Assembly (NCBI RefSeq): GCF_023167545.1
Contig: NZ_AP014647.1
Coordinates: forward strand, 186,001 to 250,000
Reading direction: 5' to 3'
Source of the DNA: Streptococcus constellatus subsp. constellatus
GTDB taxonomy: Bacteria > Bacillota > Bacilli > Lactobacillales > Streptococcaceae
DNA length: 64,000 bases
Below are positions 35,692-64,000 of this stretch, piece after piece (the first letter of the stretch is position 1; each line of letters starts with the position of its first letter). Both the position numbers and the translations under genes were made by a program. The notes under the pieces are model-generated. The model saw only the letters and a program-made list of their open reading frames with translations, did no database searches and was not told where the DNA came from.

Positions 35692-37408
35692 GAGTCTGGG
35701 ACAATAGTCCCTTTGCTACAAAAAAAGCAACGGATTTGCCGTTGCTTTTTGCATGGTTACGATAGTCTTGGTAAAATAGAATTGCCCAATAAACCATTTA
35801 GAAAGGCTATCCCATGCATATTCACTATAACACAAATCAAACAACTTTACCACTAGAAATCAGTTCTTTCTTGCCACAAGACCATCTCGTCTTTACTATT
35901 GAAAAAGTGGTGAATGCCTTGGAGGATCGTCACTTCCACACGTTCTATCATAACTTTGGTCGCCCGTCTTATCACCCTAAAATGCTTTTAGCCGCTCTAC
36001 TATTTGCCTACTCGCAAGGGATTTTCTCTGGACGAAAAATCGAAAAAATGATGATTGAAAATCTGGCTATGCAGTACCTAACAGGACAGTTGGTTGTCAG
36101 CTATCGCACCATCAATCGTTTTCGAGTCGCTGAAGGAATGGAAGAGCTCATTCGTGATCTTTTCATCGACCTCAATCTTCGTTTAAAAATGGAAGAGTTA
36201 GTGACCTTAGATTGTCTGTTTATTGACGGGACTAAGATTGAAGCCAACGCTAACAAGTATAGTTTCGTGTGGAAAAAGGCCACAGACAAGTTTTCCGTCA
36301 AACTTCAAGAACAGATACAGGTCTATTTTCAAGAAGAAATCACTCCCCTTATCCATCAGGCCATTAGGCTGGACGAAGAAGAACCGATTGCTTCAGAGCA
36401 GTTGATTGAATTCGCTCAAGTCCTCGAAGAAGAATTGGAAAAACTGAACCAAGACATTGAGGAGACACCCGTTAAAGGAAAGGATGAACGTAAAACTCAA
36501 CGTCGGAAACTCAAGAAAGTCCTGCGTAAAGTCAAGGATGATTTTTCAGTACGTGCTGAAAAATATGAAGGCTACCAAGAGACATTTGAAGGGCGTAACA
36601 GCTTTTCCAAAACAGATACAGATGCCACTTTTATGCGGATGAAAGAAGACCACATGAAGAATGGTCAACTCAAGGCTGCTTACAATCTTCAAATCGCTAC
36701 TGAAAATCAATTTGTTCTTCATTATGATGTCTTCTCAAATCCGACAGATACCAAGACTCTCCTGCCATTCCTTGAAACTTATCCACATGACTTGAAGACC
36801 GTTGTCGCAGATGCCGGCTATGGAAGTGAAGAGAACCTCCTTCGTTTAGATGAAAATGAGGTGAACCATCTGATTAAATATGCCATGTTTGATCAGGAAC
36901 AGAAGAAAGGGTATAAACAGTCGGCTAGAAACTTAGCGAATTGGTACTATGATGACAAGGAGGATAGCTACACTCATCCTGATGGCTGGTGCTATCGTTT
37001 TCATCATATCAAACATCAGAAAACACAGACGGACTTTCAACAGGAAATCAAGGTTTACTACGCTGATGAACCTAAATCAGCCCCTCAAAAGGGACTATAT
37101 ATCAACGAACGTTATCAACACTTAAAAGCTAAAGAATGCCAAGCGCTTTTCTCTCCCGAAGGTAGACAGATTTTCAATCAACGTAAGATTGATGTGGAAC
37201 CTGTCTTTGGGCAGATAAAGGCTTGTTTGGGTTACAAGAGATGTAACCTAAGAGGCAAGCGTCAGGTGAAAATTGACATGGGATTAGTGCTCATGGCCAA
37301 TAATCTCCTTAAATACAATAAGAGAACGACTCAAACTTAAAAAGCTAGAGTTCCATAATTGGGAATCTCTAGCTTTTTTGTGACTGAGAACTATTTTGTC
37401 TCAGACTC
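35692..37408 (+). mobile_element. IS1182-family insertion sequence, apparently complete
   Basis: The ends carry imperfect inverted repeats, GAGTCTGGGACA at 35692-35703 and TGTCTCAGACTC at 37397-37408, around one intact transposase gene. Internal hairpins near each end (GCAACGG / CCGTTGC at 35727-35745; AAAAAGCTAGAG / CTCTAGCTTTTTT at 37340-37379) would stop transcription entering or leaving it. About 1.7 kb is the usual size. Exact ends and a target duplication were not resolved. Confidence 0.75.
35814..37340 (+). CDS. IS1182-family transposase
   Basis: The 508-residue DDE transposase has the N-terminal domain typical of IS1182 (FTIEKVVNALEDRHFHTFYHNFGRPSYHPKML). Its core includes LDCLFIDGTKIEANANKYSF, TDTDATFMRMKEDHMKNGQLKAAYN and VVADAGYGSEENL. 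The C-terminal block is IDVEPVFGQIKACLGYKR. The frame is full length with no lesion, so it may be active. Confidence 0.93.
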   Translation: MHIHYNTNQTTLPLEISSFLPQDHLVFTIEKVVNALEDRHFHTFYHNFGRPSYHPKMLLAALLFAYSQGIFSGRKIEKMMIENLAMQYLTGQLVVSYRTINRFRVAEGMEELIRDLFIDLNLRLKMEELVTLDCLFIDGTKIEANANKYSFVWKKATDKFSVKLQEQIQVYFQEEITPLIHQAIRLDEEEPIASEQLIEFAQVLEEELEKLNQDIEETPVKGKDERKTQRRKLKKVLRKVKDDFSVRAEKYEGYQETFEGRNSFSKTDTDATFMRMKEDHMKNGQLKAAYNLQIATENQFVLHYDVFSNPTDTKTLLPFLETYPHDLKTVVADAGYGSEENLLRLDENEVNHLIKYAMFDQEQKKGYKQSARNLANWYYDDKEDSYTHPDGWCYRFHHIKHQKTQTDFQQEIKVYYADEPKSAPQKGLYINERYQHLKAKECQALFSPEGRQIFNQRKIDVEPVFGQIKACLGYKRCNLRGKRQVKIDMGLVLMANNLLKYNKRTTQT

Positions 37409-37415
37409 CTTTTTG

Positions 37416-37445
37416 TGATAAAAATAGAGGGGCATTTGCCCCTCT
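37416..37445 (-). terminator. Terminator of the small minus-strand membrane-protein gene
   Basis: A 9-bp perfect stem AGAGGGGCA / TGCCCCTCT with a 2-nt loop is followed on the minus strand by ATTTTTATC. A second small hairpin (CTCTGC / GCAGAG) lies between it and the small gene's stop. Confidence 0.7.
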
Positions 37446-37468
37446 ACCTCTCTGCTAAGGCAGAGATA

Positions 37469-37639
37469 TTAATGATTCTCTTTATCTAGCCAACGATAAA
37501 CAATGTATGCAGAAGAAGTAGTTGCAATAGTAATCCACCATCTAAATGGAATTTTTAAAAATCTAGTTAATACGAATATAATGATCAAAGCCAGAATGTT
37601 ATACATAAACAATTCTTTAAAGTATTTATTTCTTTTCAT
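37469..37639 (-). CDS. Small two-helix membrane protein, 56 residues
   Basis: A minus-strand frame starts MKRNKYFKELFMYNILALII and continues with a second hydrophobic stretch (WWITIATTSSAYIVY), ending RWLDKENH. Both ends are charged, and a strong terminator follows. It has no ribosome binding site of its own and starts 10 bases after the stop of a 15-codon frame that does have one, so translation is probably coupled. I do not recognise the family. The local organisation (site, peptide, membrane protein, terminator) argues that it is a real gene. Confidence 0.5.
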   Translation of the reverse strand: MKRNKYFKELFMYNILALIIIFVLTRFLKIPFRWWITIATTSSAYIVYRWLDKENH

Positions 37640-37649
37640 AAATCAAATA

Positions 37650-37697
37650 TTAAAAATTGATTCGTCCATTATTTGGGACAGCATCTCTTGGTTTCAT
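37650..37697 (-). CDS. 15-residue peptide or leader frame (MKPRDAVPNNGRINF)
   Basis: The frame starts with ATG at 37697, preceded on the minus strand by AGGAAAGGATAACT, a good ribosome binding site at normal spacing. It ends TAA at 37650 and is followed 10 bases later by the 56-residue membrane protein. It could be a leader that couples translation, or a short functional peptide. It is hydrophilic with no signal sequence. Confidence 0.4.
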   Translation of the reverse strand: MKPRDAVPNNGRINF

Positions 37698-37775
37698 AGT
37701 TATCCTTTCCTAAAATTAGAAGTAAAAAAGTAGTAATAGTATTTTGATAATATTTAGATATGGTTGTATTTGTAG

Positions 37776-38003
37776 AATAATTATTTTAATGATTGTTGTC
37801 GTATTACAAATCGTGCATTTGAGTTGGCTAGGAAGTTGAAACGTTATGATCAATTGGGCTTCTCGCAGGTTCGGTTGGGTATCTGTAGGCATGACGAACA
37901 GTTAATTACTCAAGGGCTACAGTTATTAGAATTAACAAGGGAATTAGAATTTCATCGTATCCTTACAGAAGAAGTTCGTCATTTCCATCGTTCGGATTTT
38001 TAA
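37776..38003 (+). pseudogene. C-terminal gene fragment, regulator-like
   Basis: An open frame with no start codon encodes RITNRAFELARKLKRYDQLG, then FSQVRLGICRHDEQLITQGL and QLLELTRELEFHRILTEEV, ending RHFHRSDF. The helical, Leu-rich pattern resembles the TPR tail of Rgg/MutR-type or similar regulators, but I cannot name it. It lies next to an IS element and a repeat array, so it is probably debris of a deleted gene. Confidence 0.4.
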
Positions 38004-38042
38004 TCATTCTTTTTCAGAAAATTTCCTATAATTTCCCATTCA

Positions 38043-38051
38043 TGTTATACT
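38043..38051 (+). promoter_or_regulatory. Possible extended -10 promoter reading into the repeat array
   Basis: TGTTATACT (TG-N-TATACT) lies about 20 bases before the first degenerate repeat. No terminator is seen between here and the DUF6261-type gene, so the array would be within that gene's 5' leader of about 300 bases. The -35 is poor. Confidence 0.4.
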
Positions 38052-38071
38052 AAATGAGATGATTTTTCTGA

Positions 38072-38317
38072 ATTTTGTTGACTGATGAGGTGAAACGAGA
38101 CAATTTCACTTCGTCCGCGCGGCTGACAAGGCAAACGGCTTGTAGTTCAGACCGTCCGCCCGGCGGACGAGATAAATTTCTTTTGATTCATGCTGTCCGC
38201 CGAGCGGACGGAGTAAACCAAAAGGAAGAGAAACTTTCCGCCGAGCGGACGAAGCAAACGAAAAGTAGTTGAGGTCATCCGCCGCGCTGACGGAAAAAGG
38301 AGAGGTCATTGAGACTG
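38072..38317 (+). repeat. 41-bp-period array of GC-rich palindromes
   Basis: Five 15-bp palindromic cores start at 38113, 38154, 38195, 38236 and 38277, exactly 41 bases apart each time. The best form is GTCCGC-CGA-GCGGAC (six-base-pair stem, three-base loop). Each core is followed by a conserved tail like GRAGYAAAC and then 17 bases that differ between units. The first and last cores are degenerate (GCTGAC in place of GCGGAC). A sixth, partial unit at 38072 keeps only the tail (GAGGTGAAAC). The GC content stands out sharply from the AT-rich surroundings. Because 41 is not a multiple of three, this is not a coding repeat. No cas gene is in the window. Confidence 0.85.
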
Positions 38318-38356
38318 TTGCTTTAAGTGACAAGTAAAAGAGGAAAGAAGGAATGT

Positions 38357-39097
38357 ATGAAGCAAGAAAAGCTCATTGGACTTAAAATTAGCAATCTCCG
38401 CTCAGCCGAGTTTGTTCAGTTTATCACTCGGTTTTTGGATGATGTGGAAAAAGAAGGGTTAGACTTCAAAAATGAAGAAGTGTTAGCTGCTTTGGTAAAG
38501 AAGCTAAAAGCGGCTCTGCCATCTTATCAGGCTTCGCTGGGTCAGATTCGGGCGAGCGAAAAGTCAGCTTCGATTAGCGCGGCTGACGAGTTGCGTGACG
38601 CGGATTTGCAAGCTCTTCGTGATGCGATTAAGCCTTATCGAGCAGCCAAGCGTGAAGAGGAAAAGTCAGCGTATGAAAGTTTGAAACGCCTCTTTGAGCA
38701 GTACAAGGGTGCACACACCAAGCACTACGAGGAAGAAACAGCCCTCATTGACAGCTTGCTGGAAAAACTCAAAACAGCCCCCTATAAGGAGCAGGTGGGG
38801 ACTTTGGCGATTGGGAAATTTGTCGACAATCTGACGGAGAGCCACGCCGCTTTTGAGCAACTCTTTGCCTCGCGCTCACAAGAGAAGTTACAAAAAGTGA
38901 GCTATGATGTCAAACAATTGCGCAAAGAAGTGGCGACGCCTTACCAACAGTTGGCAGACTATGTCGAAATTTTAAGTCAGGTCAAATCCGATGAGTTTTA
39001 CCAAAATGTCCTTTCCGTACTCAACAACAGCCGCAAACATTATGCGGATATCCTTGCCCGCCGCAAGGGGAAAGTGCCTAAAGTAGAAGTGAACTAA
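38357..39097 (+). CDS. DUF6261-type protein
   Basis: The 246-residue protein is soluble and almost entirely helical (Lys/Glu/Ala-rich, start MKQEKLIGLKISNLRSAEFVQ). I assign it to the DUF6261 family from memory; no function is known. The ATG at 38357 follows AAGGA by 5 bases; an in-frame start at 38327 is weaker. The segment at 38577-38590 (GCGCGGCTGACGAG) matches 13 of 14 bases of repeat unit 1 in the upstream array, so gene and array share sequence. GC content is higher than in flanking genes, which may indicate transfer. Confidence 0.7.
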   Translation: MKQEKLIGLKISNLRSAEFVQFITRFLDDVEKEGLDFKNEEVLAALVKKLKAALPSYQASLGQIRASEKSASISAADELRDADLQALRDAIKPYRAAKREEEKSAYESLKRLFEQYKGAHTKHYEEETALIDSLLEKLKTAPYKEQVGTLAIGKFVDNLTESHAAFEQLFASRSQEKLQKVSYDVKQLRKEVATPYQQLADYVEILSQVKSDEFYQNVLSVLNNSRKHYADILARRKGKVPKVEVN

Positions 39098-39108
39098 TTA
39101 AAAAATGA

Positions 39109-39132
39109 GGTTGGGATCTTCCCAACTTTTTT
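39109..39132 (+). terminator. Rho-independent terminator
   Basis: The stem GTTGGGA / TCCCAAC with loop TCT is followed by TTTTTT, after the DUF6261-type gene. Confidence 0.8.
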
Positions 39133-39206
39133 GTACTCGTAGATGAGGTGAAAGCCAGATAAATTATCCTTGACGACAGAGTACGTGCGCCGATAAGACT
39201 CGGATA

Positions 39207-39215
39207 TGGTATAAT
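39207..39215 (+). promoter_or_regulatory. Extended -10 promoter of the MscS gene
   Basis: TGGTATAAT (TG-N-TATAAT) lies 22 bases before the start codon, with AGGAGG between. No good -35 is present, as is common with extended -10 elements. Confidence 0.6.
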
Positions 39216-39236
39216 AGAAATAAGTAGGAGGTAGCT

Positions 39237-40094
39237 ATGCTATTTGCGAACAAGAATGTATTCTCTCGTTATTTTGAAAAACTCAACTGGTCTCATTTGG
39301 TAGATGATGTCTTTAGCAAGCTCGTTTCACTTTTGCTCTTGCTAGCTCTCTTTTACCTCGCTAAAAAGCTGGTACATGTACTCGTAAGAAAGATTATCTC
39401 CCCCTCTTTGAAACTCTCTAGTCAAGACGAAGGGAGGCAAAAGACCCTCACTCGTTTGATGGAAAATTTGCTGAATTACACCCTTTACTTTCTCTTGATT
39501 TATTGGATATTAGCGATTTTAGGCTTGCCGGTGTCTAGTTTACTAGCAGGAGCTGGGATTGCTGGGGTGGCAATCGGGATGGGAGCGCAAGGCTTCTTGT
39601 CTGATTTAGTCAATGGTTTCTTTATTTTGTTGGAGCGGCAGTTGGATGTCGGAGACAGCGTTCGTCTGACTAATGGCTCGATTAAAATCGCAGGAACAGT
39701 TGTGAGTGTCGGAATTCGGACGACACAAGTGCGCGATGCAGATGGCACTTTGCATTACGTTCCTAATCGCAATATTACTGTCGTCAGCAATCTCTCACGC
39801 GGTAATATGCGAGCGCTCATTGATATTCCATTATACGCTCAGACGGATTTGGAGAAGGTCACTCGGATTATCCAGCAGGTCAATCAAGAATATGCGGGCG
39901 ATCAAGTAGAAATTTTGCAGGAACCGACGATTTTAGGTCCGCAAGTTAGCGAAAATGGTCAATTTTATTTTCGTATTAGTATCACCGTCCAAAGTGGTAG
40001 CCAAAGCATCGTTTACCATCAATTTTACAGACTGTATCATGACGCTTTATTAAAGGAAGGAATTGATTTGCCAACGATTTATGCACCAGCGTAA
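39237..40094 (+). CDS. Small-conductance mechanosensitive channel (MscS family)
   Basis: The 285-residue channel should open under hypo-osmotic stress to release solutes. Three transmembrane segments (residues about 24-45, 80-100, 102-125) are followed by the family's Gly/Ala-rich pore helix (LAGAGIAGVAIGMGAQGFLSDLVNG). The beta domain comes next (LDVGDSVRLTNG, VVSVGIRTTQVRDADG, VPNRNITVVSN). AGGAGG lies 5 bases before the ATG. The following gene starts 17 bases after the stop and may be co-transcribed. Confidence 0.9.
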   Translation: MLFANKNVFSRYFEKLNWSHLVDDVFSKLVSLLLLLALFYLAKKLVHVLVRKIISPSLKLSSQDEGRQKTLTRLMENLLNYTLYFLLIYWILAILGLPVSSLLAGAGIAGVAIGMGAQGFLSDLVNGFFILLERQLDVGDSVRLTNGSIKIAGTVVSVGIRTTQVRDADGTLHYVPNRNITVVSNLSRGNMRALIDIPLYAQTDLEKVTRIIQQVNQEYAGDQVEILQEPTILGPQVSENGQFYFRISITVQSGSQSIVYHQFYRLYHDALLKEGIDLPTIYAPA

Positions 40095-61351: not shown

Positions 61352-64000
61352 ATGAAAAAAATGTTTGATCACAAAGAACAACGTTTTTCCATTCGTAAAT
61401 ATTCGTGTGGTGCAGCTTCTGTTTTGATTGGGTGTGTCCTCTTTATGGGTGGTCAAGCAGTATCGGCTGATGAACAAGTTACAACAGACACTAGTATTGA
61501 AACGTCTCAAGTAAATACTGCCGCAAAAAATAATATTCAAAACACAACTGGATCAACTGCTGTGGCTCCTCAAACAGCAACAACTCAAAAAGAAACTGCT
61601 GTAACAACAACTGCGCCAACTAGTTCTTCAGCGGATAAAGCTGTTTCTGTAGCTACAGAGACGACACCTTCTCAAACAACGACTGTTGATGCAGCGACAC
61701 AGACAGAAGACGAAACAACAAATTCATCTGTTGATGCAACAACAGACACAGCTGATTCTTCAACAACTGCAAAAGTTGAAAAGAGTCCTGTCGAAAAAGA
61801 AGCAAGGAAAGAAGAAATTGATGTTGCGAAATTGATGGATAAAACGCAACCAGCACAACAAGCTCGTCTTGCAGAATCCAAAGTAACGCAAAGTGTACCT
61901 TCTTTACCAAGTCAGGGCTATTACACTTATACGAAACGTACGGAAGTGAAAAATGAACCGAAAGCAAGTGCAGCATTGCAATTTTATGTAAATGCGGGGG
62001 ATCGTGTTTTTTACGACCAAGTTTTGATTGCAGATGGATACCAATGGCTAAGTTACCGCTCTTATAGTGGTGTTCGTCGCTATGCGGCTATTAACAAGCT
62101 GATTCAATCTGAACCTCAACAGCCAGCAAAGCAAACACCTTCTTCAACAGGAACTTTCCCTTCTAGAGGAAGATATATTTTCTCTGGAACGACAGAGGTT
62201 AAGAATGAAGCCAAATTGTCAGCTCCGACACAATTTACTTTTAATAGAGGCGATAGCGTTAACTATGATAAAGTGCTGGAAAATGATGGTTATCAATGGA
62301 TTAGCTATATTTCTTATAGTGGAATGCGTCGTTATGCAGCTGTTACAAAGTTAGCTCAGCCAGCACCTCAAAGACCAGCTCAAAGTCAAGTGACAGGTAC
62401 GATTCACATTGAAAATAAGACCTCGCAAGGCTTTGATGTGGTGGTGACGAATGTCAACTCGACCAAGGGTGTGAAGACGGTGAAGTTGCCTATTTGGTCT
62501 AGCCAAGGCGGTCAAGATGACATCATCTGGTACGATGCCACTAAGCAAAATGACGGCACTTATAAATTGAGTGTGAACATTCGTCGTCATAAGAATAACT
62601 ACGGTGACTATAATGTGCACATGTATTACGTTCAGTCAGACGGCAGCTTGCAAGGTGTGACGGGTACCACGACTAAGGTGGAAGAACCTAAATATAGTGT
62701 GACCGGCACGATTCACATTGAAAATAAGACTTCGCAAGGTTTTGATGTGGTAGTGACAGATGTTAGCTCCACCAAAGGCGTGAAGACAGTGAAGCTGCCT
62801 GTTTGGTCCAGTCAAGGCGGTCAAGATGACATCATCTGGTACGATGCAGCCAAGCAAATAGACGGCACCTACAAGTTGAGTGTGGATATTCGTCGCCATA
62901 AAAATAATCGAGGCGAATACAACATTCACATGTATTACGTTCAGTCAGATGGTAGCTTGCAAGGTGTAACGGGTACCACGACTAAGGTGGAAGAGCCAAA
63001 ATATAGTGTGACTGGCACCATTAACATTCAAAATAAGACATCTCAAGGCTTTGATGTCCTGATTACAAATGCGTCAGACAGCAATGGAATTTCTAGAGTG
63101 AAAGTTCCTATCTGGACAGATAAGGGCGGTCAAGATGATATTATTTGGTATGATGCCGCTAAGCAAAGTGATGGAAATTATAAAGTTTCTGTCAATATTG
63201 ATAAGCACAAGGGTGAACGTGGCACCTATAATATTCACCTTTACTACATTGAATCAAACGGTAAAGTAAAAGGTGTTAGCGGCACTAAGACAAGTGTAGC
63301 TGAGCCAAGTTCTGCGAGAGAAATCATTCCGTCTCAAGGAGTTTATACTTTTAAAAAAGAGGTTGAAGTCAAAAATAGTCCCGTAATGGCGGCTAAGACT
63401 GAATTTACCTTTGCAAGAGGAGAACGGATTCGCTATGATAAGGTATTAGACGCAGATCATCATCAATGGATTAGTTATGTTAGCTACAGTGGTACACGCC
63501 GTTATATCCCAATTGCAACCTTAACAAATGAAGAAACTCCTAAGCCTGTTCAGGTGACTGGCACGATTCACATTGAAAACAAGACCTCGCAAGGTTTTGA
63601 TGTGGTGGTGACGAATGTCAGCTCGACCAATGGCGTGAAGACAGTGAAGTTGCCTATTTGGTCTAGCCAAGGCGGTCAAGATGATGTGATCTGGTATGAT
63701 GCAGCCAAGCAAACAGACGGCACTTACAAGTTGAATGTGGACATTCGTCGTCATAAGAATAACTACGGTGACTATAATGTGCACATGTATTACGTTCAGT
63801 CAGACGGCAGCTTGCAAGGTGTGACGGGTACCACGACTAAGGTGGAAGAACCTAAATATAGTGTGACCGGCACGATTCACATTGAAAATAAGACTTCGCA
63901 AGGTTTTGATGTGGTGGTGACGAATGTCAGCTCGACCAAGGGTGTGAAGACGGTGAAGTTGCCTATTTGGTCTAGCCAAGGCGGTCAAGATGATGTAATC
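61352..64000 (+). CDS. YSIRK-type surface protein with SH3 and GBS-Bsp-like repeats, 3' end outside window
   Basis: The frame is open for all 883 visible codons. A signal peptide with the YSIRK-like motif FSIRKYSCGAASVLIGCVLF is followed by a Thr/Ser-rich region to about residue 185. Next come two SH3_5-like domains (near residues 188-250 and 268-332), three GBS-Bsp-like repeats of 103 codons starting at 62390, 62699 and 63008, and a third SH3 domain (63319-63530). Two more repeats start at 63554 and 63863. The repeats begin VTGTIHIENKTSQGFDVVV and share QGGQDDIIWYDA. An LPXTG anchor is expected beyond the window. The ATG at 61352 follows TAGGATAAG. The role is probably wall binding, morphogenesis or adhesion. 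Confidence 0.88.
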   Translation, partial: MKKMFDHKEQRFSIRKYSCGAASVLIGCVLFMGGQAVSADEQVTTDTSIETSQVNTAAKNNIQNTTGSTAVAPQTATTQKETAVTTTAPTSSSADKAVSVATETTPSQTTTVDAATQTEDETTNSSVDATTDTADSSTTAKVEKSPVEKEARKEEIDVAKLMDKTQPAQQARLAESKVTQSVPSLPSQGYYTYTKRTEVKNEPKASAALQFYVNAGDRVFYDQVLIADGYQWLSYRSYSGVRRYAAINKLIQSEPQQPAKQTPSSTGTFPSRGRYIFSGTTEVKNEAKLSAPTQFTFNRGDSVNYDKVLENDGYQWISYISYSGMRRYAAVTKLAQPAPQRPAQSQVTGTIHIENKTSQGFDVVVTNVNSTKGVKTVKLPIWSSQGGQDDIIWYDATKQNDGTYKLSVNIRRHKNNYGDYNVHMYYVQSDGSLQGVTGTTTKVEEPKYSVTGTIHIENKTSQGFDVVVTDVSSTKGVKTVKLPVWSSQGGQDDIIWYDAAKQIDGTYKLSVDIRRHKNNRGEYNIHMYYVQSDGSLQGVTGTTTKVEEPKYSVTGTINIQNKTSQGFDVLITNASDSNGISRVKVPIWTDKGGQDDIIWYDAAKQSDGNYKVSVNIDKHKGERGTYNIHLYYIESNGKVKGVSGTKTSVAEPSSAREIIPSQGVYTFKKEVEVKNSPVMAAKTEFTFARGERIRYDKVLDADHHQWISYVSYSGTRRYIPIATLTNEETPKPVQVTGTIHIENKTSQGFDVVVTNVSSTNGVKTVKLPIWSSQGGQDDVIWYDAAKQTDGTYKLNVDIRRHKNNYGDYNVHMYYVQSDGSLQGVTGTTTKVEEPKYSVTGTIHIENKTSQGFDVVVTNVSSTKGVKTVKLPIWSSQGGQDDVI
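62390..64000 (+). repeat. 309-bp tandem repeats within the surface-protein gene
   Basis: Units start at 62390, 62699, 63008, 63554 and 63863 (last one cut by the window). Units 1, 2, 4 and 5 are nearly the same at the DNA level, while unit 3 has diverged. An SH3 segment separates units 3 and 4. Confidence 0.92.

Follow-up and report, generated by a model that had tools for sequence, protein, structure and literature searches.

Repeat arrays of conserved 41- to 42-bp spacing accompany DUF6261 genes in two bacterial phyla and may form a two-part system with their proteins

INTRODUCTION

One intergenic region of Streptococcus constellatus subsp. constellatus raises the question of why a strictly periodic array of short palindromes stands directly ahead of a gene for a DUF6261 protein, and whether the array and the protein belong together. 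The region lies in a window of 64,000 nucleotides (contig NZ_AP014647.1, positions 186,001 to 250,000), which is the whole stretch of DNA analyzed here. An earlier note, made from the letters of the window, had described the array as CRISPR-like in geometry, as a comb of small hairpins in a 5′ leader, or as a row of protein sites set close to four helical turns apart. Word searches of open-licence papers found no description of such arrays or of a DUF6261-array system, and they found DUF6261 (PF19775) in a single paper, as a mutated gene in a table (PMC10376253).

SAMPLES AND SCOPE

DUF6261 is carried by 90 of the 284 Streptococcus genomes searched at E ≤ 1e-3 (88 above the Pfam cut-off), by 11 of the 395 taken as a sample of the phylum Bacteroidota, and, in seven copies, by a genome of another Lactobacillales family (G307), the only non-Streptococcus carrier among 198 sampled from the order. 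One Streptococcus genome (G074) has 12 scored matches, some with internal stops. The spacing analysis covered 95 genes, namely, 68 of 143 Streptococcus matches (60 hand-picked upstream regions, the four genes of the window genome, and L059, L068, L074, and L069), the seven from G307, and 20 of 21 Bacteroidota matches, the one left out (L242) being below the cut-off. Start codons were assigned mechanically, and related genes among the 95 are not independent. Three DUF6261 remnants (L058, L067, and L110) were left out of the 95 despite having arrays; in these, the array is kept and a large internal deletion has reduced the gene to its first codons and its last part. A second protein search gave 175 matches, of which 120 were listed.

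RESULTS AND DISCUSSION

The array of the window

The window array consists of about seven units of 41 bp (38072-38358) upstream of the DUF6261 gene (Table 1). The exact 41-bp register reported for five cores was confirmed, the half unit ahead of them lies in that register as claimed, and a further degenerate in-register unit follows the five; both ends of the array are thus degenerate. Identity between units is highest in the 15-bp core (0.79), lower in the tail (0.63), and lowest in the 17-base segment (0.40). None of 500 mononucleotide shuffles of 37400-39600 produced four consecutive dyads with 5 or more of 6 pairs and a spacing of exactly 41 bp, and when the whole 64 kb was scanned in 335 windows of 380 bp, periodic identity of at least 56% at any lag from 25 to 60 was reached in four, three of which are the array; 41 or 42 was the best lag in 28 of the 335 (8 percent).

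Table 1. Features of the array and its gene in window coordinates
Feature	Positions	Strand	Evidence
Extended -10 element TGTTATACT, probable promoter 5′ of the array	38043..38051	+	By eye
First 41-bp unit, degenerate	38072..38112	+	In register with the array
Unit 1, core GTCCGCGCGGCTGAC	38113..38153	+	R2 model, 38.8 bits (unit in training set)
Unit 2, core GTCCGCCCGGCGGAC	38154..38194	+	R2 model, 39.4 bits (unit in training set)
Unit 3, core GTCCGCCGAGCGGAC	38195..38235	+	R2 model, 42.0 bits (unit in training set)
Unit 4, core TTCCGCCGAGCGGAC	38236..38276	+	R2 model, 40.9 bits (unit in training set)
Unit 5, core ATCCGCCGCGCTGAC, degenerate tail	38277..38317	+	Sequence register
Last in-register unit, degenerate; overlaps the probable ribosome-binding site and the start codon	38318..38358	+	Register
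DUF6261 (PF19775) gene, 246 aa	38357..39097	+	Pfam E 3e-39, residues 71-223
First 15 codons; counterpart in relatives replaced along with the array; residues 7-13 variable	38357..38401	+	

The array does not have the near-identical repeats and unrelated spacers of CRISPR, given cores that are on average 79% identical and 17-base parts that are alike across the family, and the earlier judgment that it is not a CRISPR array is upheld on these features. The suggestion that the 17-base segments could be spacers did not survive, since units of the family resemble one another there as well, weak as this likeness is within the window array itself.

The extended -10 element proposed ahead of the array is visible by eye, but a consensus scan reports no promoter there; the same element (TGTTATACT) stands 5′ of the arrays of L009, L059, L068, and L180. 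The scan of 37800-39250 bore out the absence of a terminator-like site on the + strand from array to gene, its sole + strand site (39107) coming after the gene. As the promoter precedes the array in genes of the window type, the array is probably transcribed there, and in the window it probably lies in the 5′ leader of the DUF6261 gene.

Elsewhere in the window, a DDE transposase gene (35814-37340) precedes the array region, and a tandem repeat of 309 bp in about 2.5 copies (62390-63167) may represent a repeated protein domain. Antisense to the gene, the array is traversed by an open frame of 75 codons both in the window (38106-38333, -) and at L009 (1983-2210, +), and the frames of these two paralogous arrays are similar. 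Large BOX elements likewise have open frames on both strands (PMC3049150).

A spacing shared by unrelated repeats

When the 380 bp upstream of each gene was scored at 36 lags (25 to 60), 41 or 42 was the best lag in 74 of the 95 genes, made up of 51 of 68 in Streptococcus, 7 of 7 in G307, and 16 of 20 in Bacteroidota. Periodicity with z ≥ 3 at any lag was found for 64 genes, 63 of them at 41/42 and one at 40, and the 51 upstream regions whose periodic identity was 56% or higher all had a lag of 41/42; with arrays up to 760 bp upstream included, z ≥ 3 at 41/42 applied to 70 of the 95. Downstream of the genes, 41/42 was the best lag in 3 of 60 controls, none of them strong. The interval of 380-760 bp upstream is an unclean control in which several arrays lie, and 41/42 was the leading lag in this interval for 11 of 68 Streptococcus, 6 of 7 G307, and 3 of 20 Bacteroidota genes.

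Local spacings, counted in 30-bp windows of identity ≥ 0.63 at lags 20-70, were 41 (186 cases), 42 (122), 40 (6), and 43 (3), with 98 spread over 47 other lags. At least one local 41/42 window was present for 82 of 95 genes, and 41 and 42 were mixed in 25. The other 13 had no such window within 760 bp upstream; the DNA further upstream of 12 of these yielded one clear array and one 41-bp window at chance level. Weighted by their counts, 41 and 42 average 41.4 bp, or four turns of 10.35 bp, so that the helical idea put forward for the window holds across phyla, strengthened by 42-bp and mixed 41/42 arrays.

Although the spacing is shared, the repeat sequences look unrelated between gene lineages, as illustrated by L193 (GTCGCTCGGAGCGAC), L249 (CCTTCGTA...TACGAAGG), L231 (CTCCGATACATTGGAG), and L234. 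The constant feature across phyla is the 41/42 spacing, while each gene lineage has a repeat sequence of its own. Of 70 arrays, only 28 had dyads that exceeded their column-shuffled controls, with 0 of 6 in G307, which rules dyads out as a general array feature. The general feature is therefore the spacing and not the palindrome, and neither hairpins nor a dimer-type site can be general; since this result weakens the hairpin and dimer-site readings equally, it leaves the odds between them unchanged.

The earlier note had named random spacing, or absence of arrays upstream of other DUF6261 genes, as outcomes that would speak against it. The survey, whose regions were the surroundings of DUF6261 genes, favors the note instead, in that arrays lie upstream of most genes examined in two phyla, and we regard the association of array and DUF6261 as near certain. 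A spacing common to unrelated sequences across phyla, beside one gene family, is more than ordinary explanations account for.

Arrays in the source genome and the anginosus group

The window genome (G000), a single contig of 1.90 Mb, contains four DUF6261 genes. An array related to that of the window precedes the second gene, L009; a 41-bp array of different sequence belongs to the third, L016; and the fourth, L017, has a degenerate 42-bp array (identity about 0.55) at a distance of 1.2-1.5 kb upstream, with the same 42-bp periodicity also present in G070 and G129. All four genes thus have an array, the case of L017 being weak. At this locus (L017/L264; C1 about 323200-324600), a transposase-like gene, which we take to be IS30-like, lies between the degenerate array and the DUF6261 gene. 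A third related array stands between alpha-amylase and histidine kinase genes, away from any DUF6261 gene.

The R2 unit model had matches at E ≤ 1e-4 in 5 of 284 Streptococcus genomes, and the genomes with R2-type arrays are G000, G070 (S. anginosus J4206), G129, G298, and G209 (S. massiliensis DSM 18628); the R1 unit model had matches at E ≤ 1e-3 in 4 of 147 genomes, including a weak one in G056 (S. cristatus). A survey of the anginosus group gave 27 arrays at nine kinds of site, comprising DUF6261 leaders and the intervals of amylase/kinase, metal-sensing repressor/tRNA-editing gene, membrane protein/ABC transporter, streptococcal histidine-triad protein/next gene, FeoB/ABC permease, and NFACT/acetolactate decarboxylase, together with MetG and one more. 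Of the 149 intervals scored in these arrays, 134 measure exactly 41 bp; most of the remainder come from units split or skipped by the detection, and L067 has a genuine deletion of 4 bp. Unit number at the same site varies by species (4-8 at amylase/kinase, 5-12 at site D), and the inner stem changes in pairs (GTCCGC/GCGGAC, GTCGAC/GTCGAC, GTCAGC/GCTGAC, GTCCGA/TCGGAT).

Exchange of the array with the protein N-terminus

Comparison of arrays with proteins was possible for 44 of the 63 genes with upstream arrays at z ≥ 3, those in which the script found its anchor. Five pairs with the same N-terminus and different bodies had a median array alignment score of 113, against 23 for 14 pairs with the same body and different N-termini; unrelated pairs scored 12.7 on average with a 95th percentile of 17, a level exceeded by 11 of the 14. 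Array sequence thus tracks the first ~17 residues of the protein more than its body. Since array and N-terminal codons are adjacent, much of this joint exchange could be linkage.

Individual cases illustrate the exchange at the level of DNA. L068 and L180 are exactly identical at -383..-329 and again at +45..+300, the end of the comparison, and unrelated in between, so that they have in common a 54-bp promoter block and the body from codon 16 to that end. At an orthologous locus, L151 (S. anginosus) differs from L012, L148, and L152 in its array (20-67% identity per 40-nt step) and in its first 20 codons (52-60%), followed by a gene that is 87-100% identical per 40-nt step; the DNA 5′ of the array differs in all four genomes, which leaves the left edge of the swap undefined there. 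In the cases traced, array and first 15-20 codons differ as a block and the rest of the gene is nearly identical. Strict pairing is countered by L009 and L059, which share an N-terminus and differ in their inner units (GTCCGCC and GTCGACC types).

The same contrast appears in the proteins, as in P0052 and P0121, whose bodies are 98% and N-termini 23% identical. Of 585 pairs whose bodies are at least 80% identical, 137 reach no more than 50% identity at the N-terminus, and in 180 the N-terminus fell below every other 13-column window; many of these pairs share members and are not independent. In a set of 122 proteins, the conserved K5-L6 and L14-x-x-A-E-F flank a variable stretch at residues 7-13 (entropy 1.6-2.8). 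Family-wide, the N-terminal block has an entropy of 1.68, matched or exceeded by residues 31-40 (1.92), residues 191-200 (1.84), and the C-terminal tail (2.77).

The DUF6261 protein

The window protein scores 134.9 bits against PF19775, where the Pfam gathering cut-off is 27, and this is its only Pfam match at E ≤ 0.001. Its pI is 8.74. The predicted fold is all-helical (mean pLDDT 88.4, pTM 0.65), and the monomer model begins with an N-terminal coil followed by helices at 16-32 and 41-90. A short alternating stretch followed by two helices invites the guess that the N-terminal segment might be used in a ribbon-helix-helix-like manner. No recognized DNA-binding domain was found in the protein, and Foldseek with the predicted fold gave no match at E ≤ 0.001 and no confident structural relative. 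NCBIfam and PADLOC made no assignment of weight, and a search for plasmid, phage, or viral homologues confirmed none.

DNA or RNA

Of the alternatives to a DNA-based system, the one that survives best, and which we nonetheless judge unlikely, is an RNA system resembling type III toxin-antitoxin modules, in which transcribed units of 41-42 nt would be RNA ligands or an antitoxin read by the N-terminal segment. If hairpins were read as RNA on the gene strand, G-T would be expected to outnumber A-C among dyad mismatches. An early, cruder count 5′ of DUF6261 genes leaned this way (G-T 28 versus A-C 18), while a count of the same kind in fixed-register cores of the extra arrays gave 65 versus 78, and the later counts on gene-strand dyads have no G-T excess, with 74 versus 81 overall (off-dyad ratio 1.04, p = 0.47) and 34 versus 40 in the 28 arrays with significant dyads (p = 0.42). 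In Bacteroidota, dyad mismatches are A-C 26 versus G-T 9, beyond the off-dyad ratio of 0.69, in small numbers. The RNA reading may draw on the two-sided stem changes of the anginosus units and on the fold of the window array as RNA, whose z of -6.1 against shuffles is what any palindrome array would be expected to give; hairpins in part of the arrays only are a point against it, as is the mixing of 41 and 42 within arrays, for which there is no simple RNA reason.

Promoter positions divide in the same manner. Strong matches stand 5′ of the arrays of L182 (TTGACA-16-TATACT), L074, L069, and L185, as transcription of the units would require, but a crude score places the better match between array and gene in L218, L225, L227, L228, L194, and L204. 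The mean promoter score upstream of 63 arrays, 8.06 versus 8.02 on the opposite strand, does not establish promoters on either side of the array as a general feature. The hairpin comb of the earlier note accordingly stands insofar as the window array probably belongs to a 5′ leader, and it falls as a general function, given the better promoter match between array and gene in these six loci, no wobble excess, and dyads in a minority of arrays. The lack of a G-T excess and the finding of arrays both before and after probable promoters make DNA the better fit, and we favor it over RNA at about two to one.

Type III loci have a transcription terminator between repeats and gene, whereas the window locus has none on the + strand in that interval, and 20 array loci gave no Rfam match at gathering. 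The layout itself is a real likeness, since ToxIN, CptIN, and TenpIN have private tandem repeats directly upstream of one protein gene and show partner specificity (PMC4627078), and tandem repeats upstream of a protein gene are also the arrangement at 74 of the 95 genes here. Repeat length varies greatly between type III loci and ToxN shows distant structural homology to Kid (PMC4627078), as against 41-42 bp throughout and a predicted all-helical protein here; nor do the arrays here have the wobble signal expected of such RNA systems.

Comparison with other known systems

A second alternative, which we find quite improbable, is that the array is the operator or attachment site of another DNA-binding protein, with DUF6261 merely its commonest neighbor or target. 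The extra arrays of the anginosus group, which adjoin unrelated genes, are what such a protein might leave, but the linkage to DUF6261 across phyla (in regions sampled around DUF6261 genes) and the tracking of array sequence with the DUF6261 N-terminus would each need a separate explanation, and the downstream control (3 of 60) also speaks against it.

Partition systems (ParR/parC, ParG) and ribbon-helix-helix arrays of the MetJ type use a short N-terminal DNA-reading segment and bind cooperatively on repeats near their own promoter. The arrays here resemble them in having repeated sites near the gene of a protein proposed, from prediction, to read DNA with its N-terminus. The repeats of those systems are 8-20 bp long, in contrast to 41-42 bp here, and partition has a motor ATPase. 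REP/BIME elements with RAYT transposases likewise form regularly spaced palindromes in intergenic DNA; a search with the Y1 (RAYT) transposase domain PF01797 gave matches in G070, G209, and G307 and none in the window genome, G129, or G298.

To our knowledge, BOX elements are not tied to one gene family. The boxA core pattern GGCAAGGCGACGCTGACG, presumably that of the BOX-A1R typing primer, had no match with one mismatch allowed in any of the five genomes with R2-type arrays, and the flanks of the anginosus-group sites, compared by eye, had no common end modules with terminal inverted repeats. Counted purely as pattern matches, an 18-base BOX core (one mismatch) is carried by 132 of the 284 Streptococcus genomes, which apparently extends its distribution beyond what could be examined in 2011 (Croucher et al., PMC3049150). 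BOX of pneumococcus and the BOX type of S. suis are modular palindromic intergenic repeats with a variable number of boxB (PMC3049150), a likeness in palindromes, intergenic location, and variable count of an internal unit; BOX differs in having boxA and boxC ends, terminal inverted repeats, and target duplications, the arrays here being without shared ends by eye. On the features examined, the arrays are not members of CRISPR, REP/RAYT, or BOX. The least probable of the alternatives, selfish or neutral BOX-like repeats that spread and slip, keep hairpins by palindrome-templated repair, and owe their spacing to history, would suit the intergenic location, the degenerate ends, and the copy numbers that differ between species at one site, but is countered by the 41/42 spacing of unrelated sequences in different phyla, the lack of shared ends or terminal repeats, and the missing BOX core.

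A candidate two-part system

We therefore return to the reading in which the DUF6261 protein and a DNA array form an undescribed two-part system, to which, judging from sequence comparison, we assign a probability of about one half; that the DUF6261 protein itself binds the DNA has chances that are about even. In the mechanism we propose, the protein would bind its own array as DNA through the N-terminal segment, with one complex per unit in a cooperative row; because 41-42 bp amounts to four turns, the complexes would lie on one helix face. At its own gene, binding of the array would control expression, and at the extra sites, which are mostly 3′ intergenic, its role may be to anchor or mark the chromosome instead of acting on promoters. 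We know of no counterpart to such a helically phased DNA platform.

A fuller form of this proposal, which we advance tentatively and with somewhat less confidence, is that DUF6261 could represent a new class of array-reading DNA-binding proteins, in which a variable N-terminal segment of ~10 residues would read the private repeat, one protein would be seated every four turns, and a regular nucleoprotein filament might form at the gene and also, in certain species, at scattered chromosomal sites, with array and reader exchanged between bacteria as a specificity cassette.

These findings describe a protein family of unknown function that travels with a cis array conserved in spacing, and not in sequence, across phyla. 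They offer a testable handle on the function of DUF6261 and suggest a naturally swapped specificity cassette made up of the array and ~15 codons. If the N-terminal segment does read the repeat, genomes would already hold dozens of matched pairs from which its code might be worked out.
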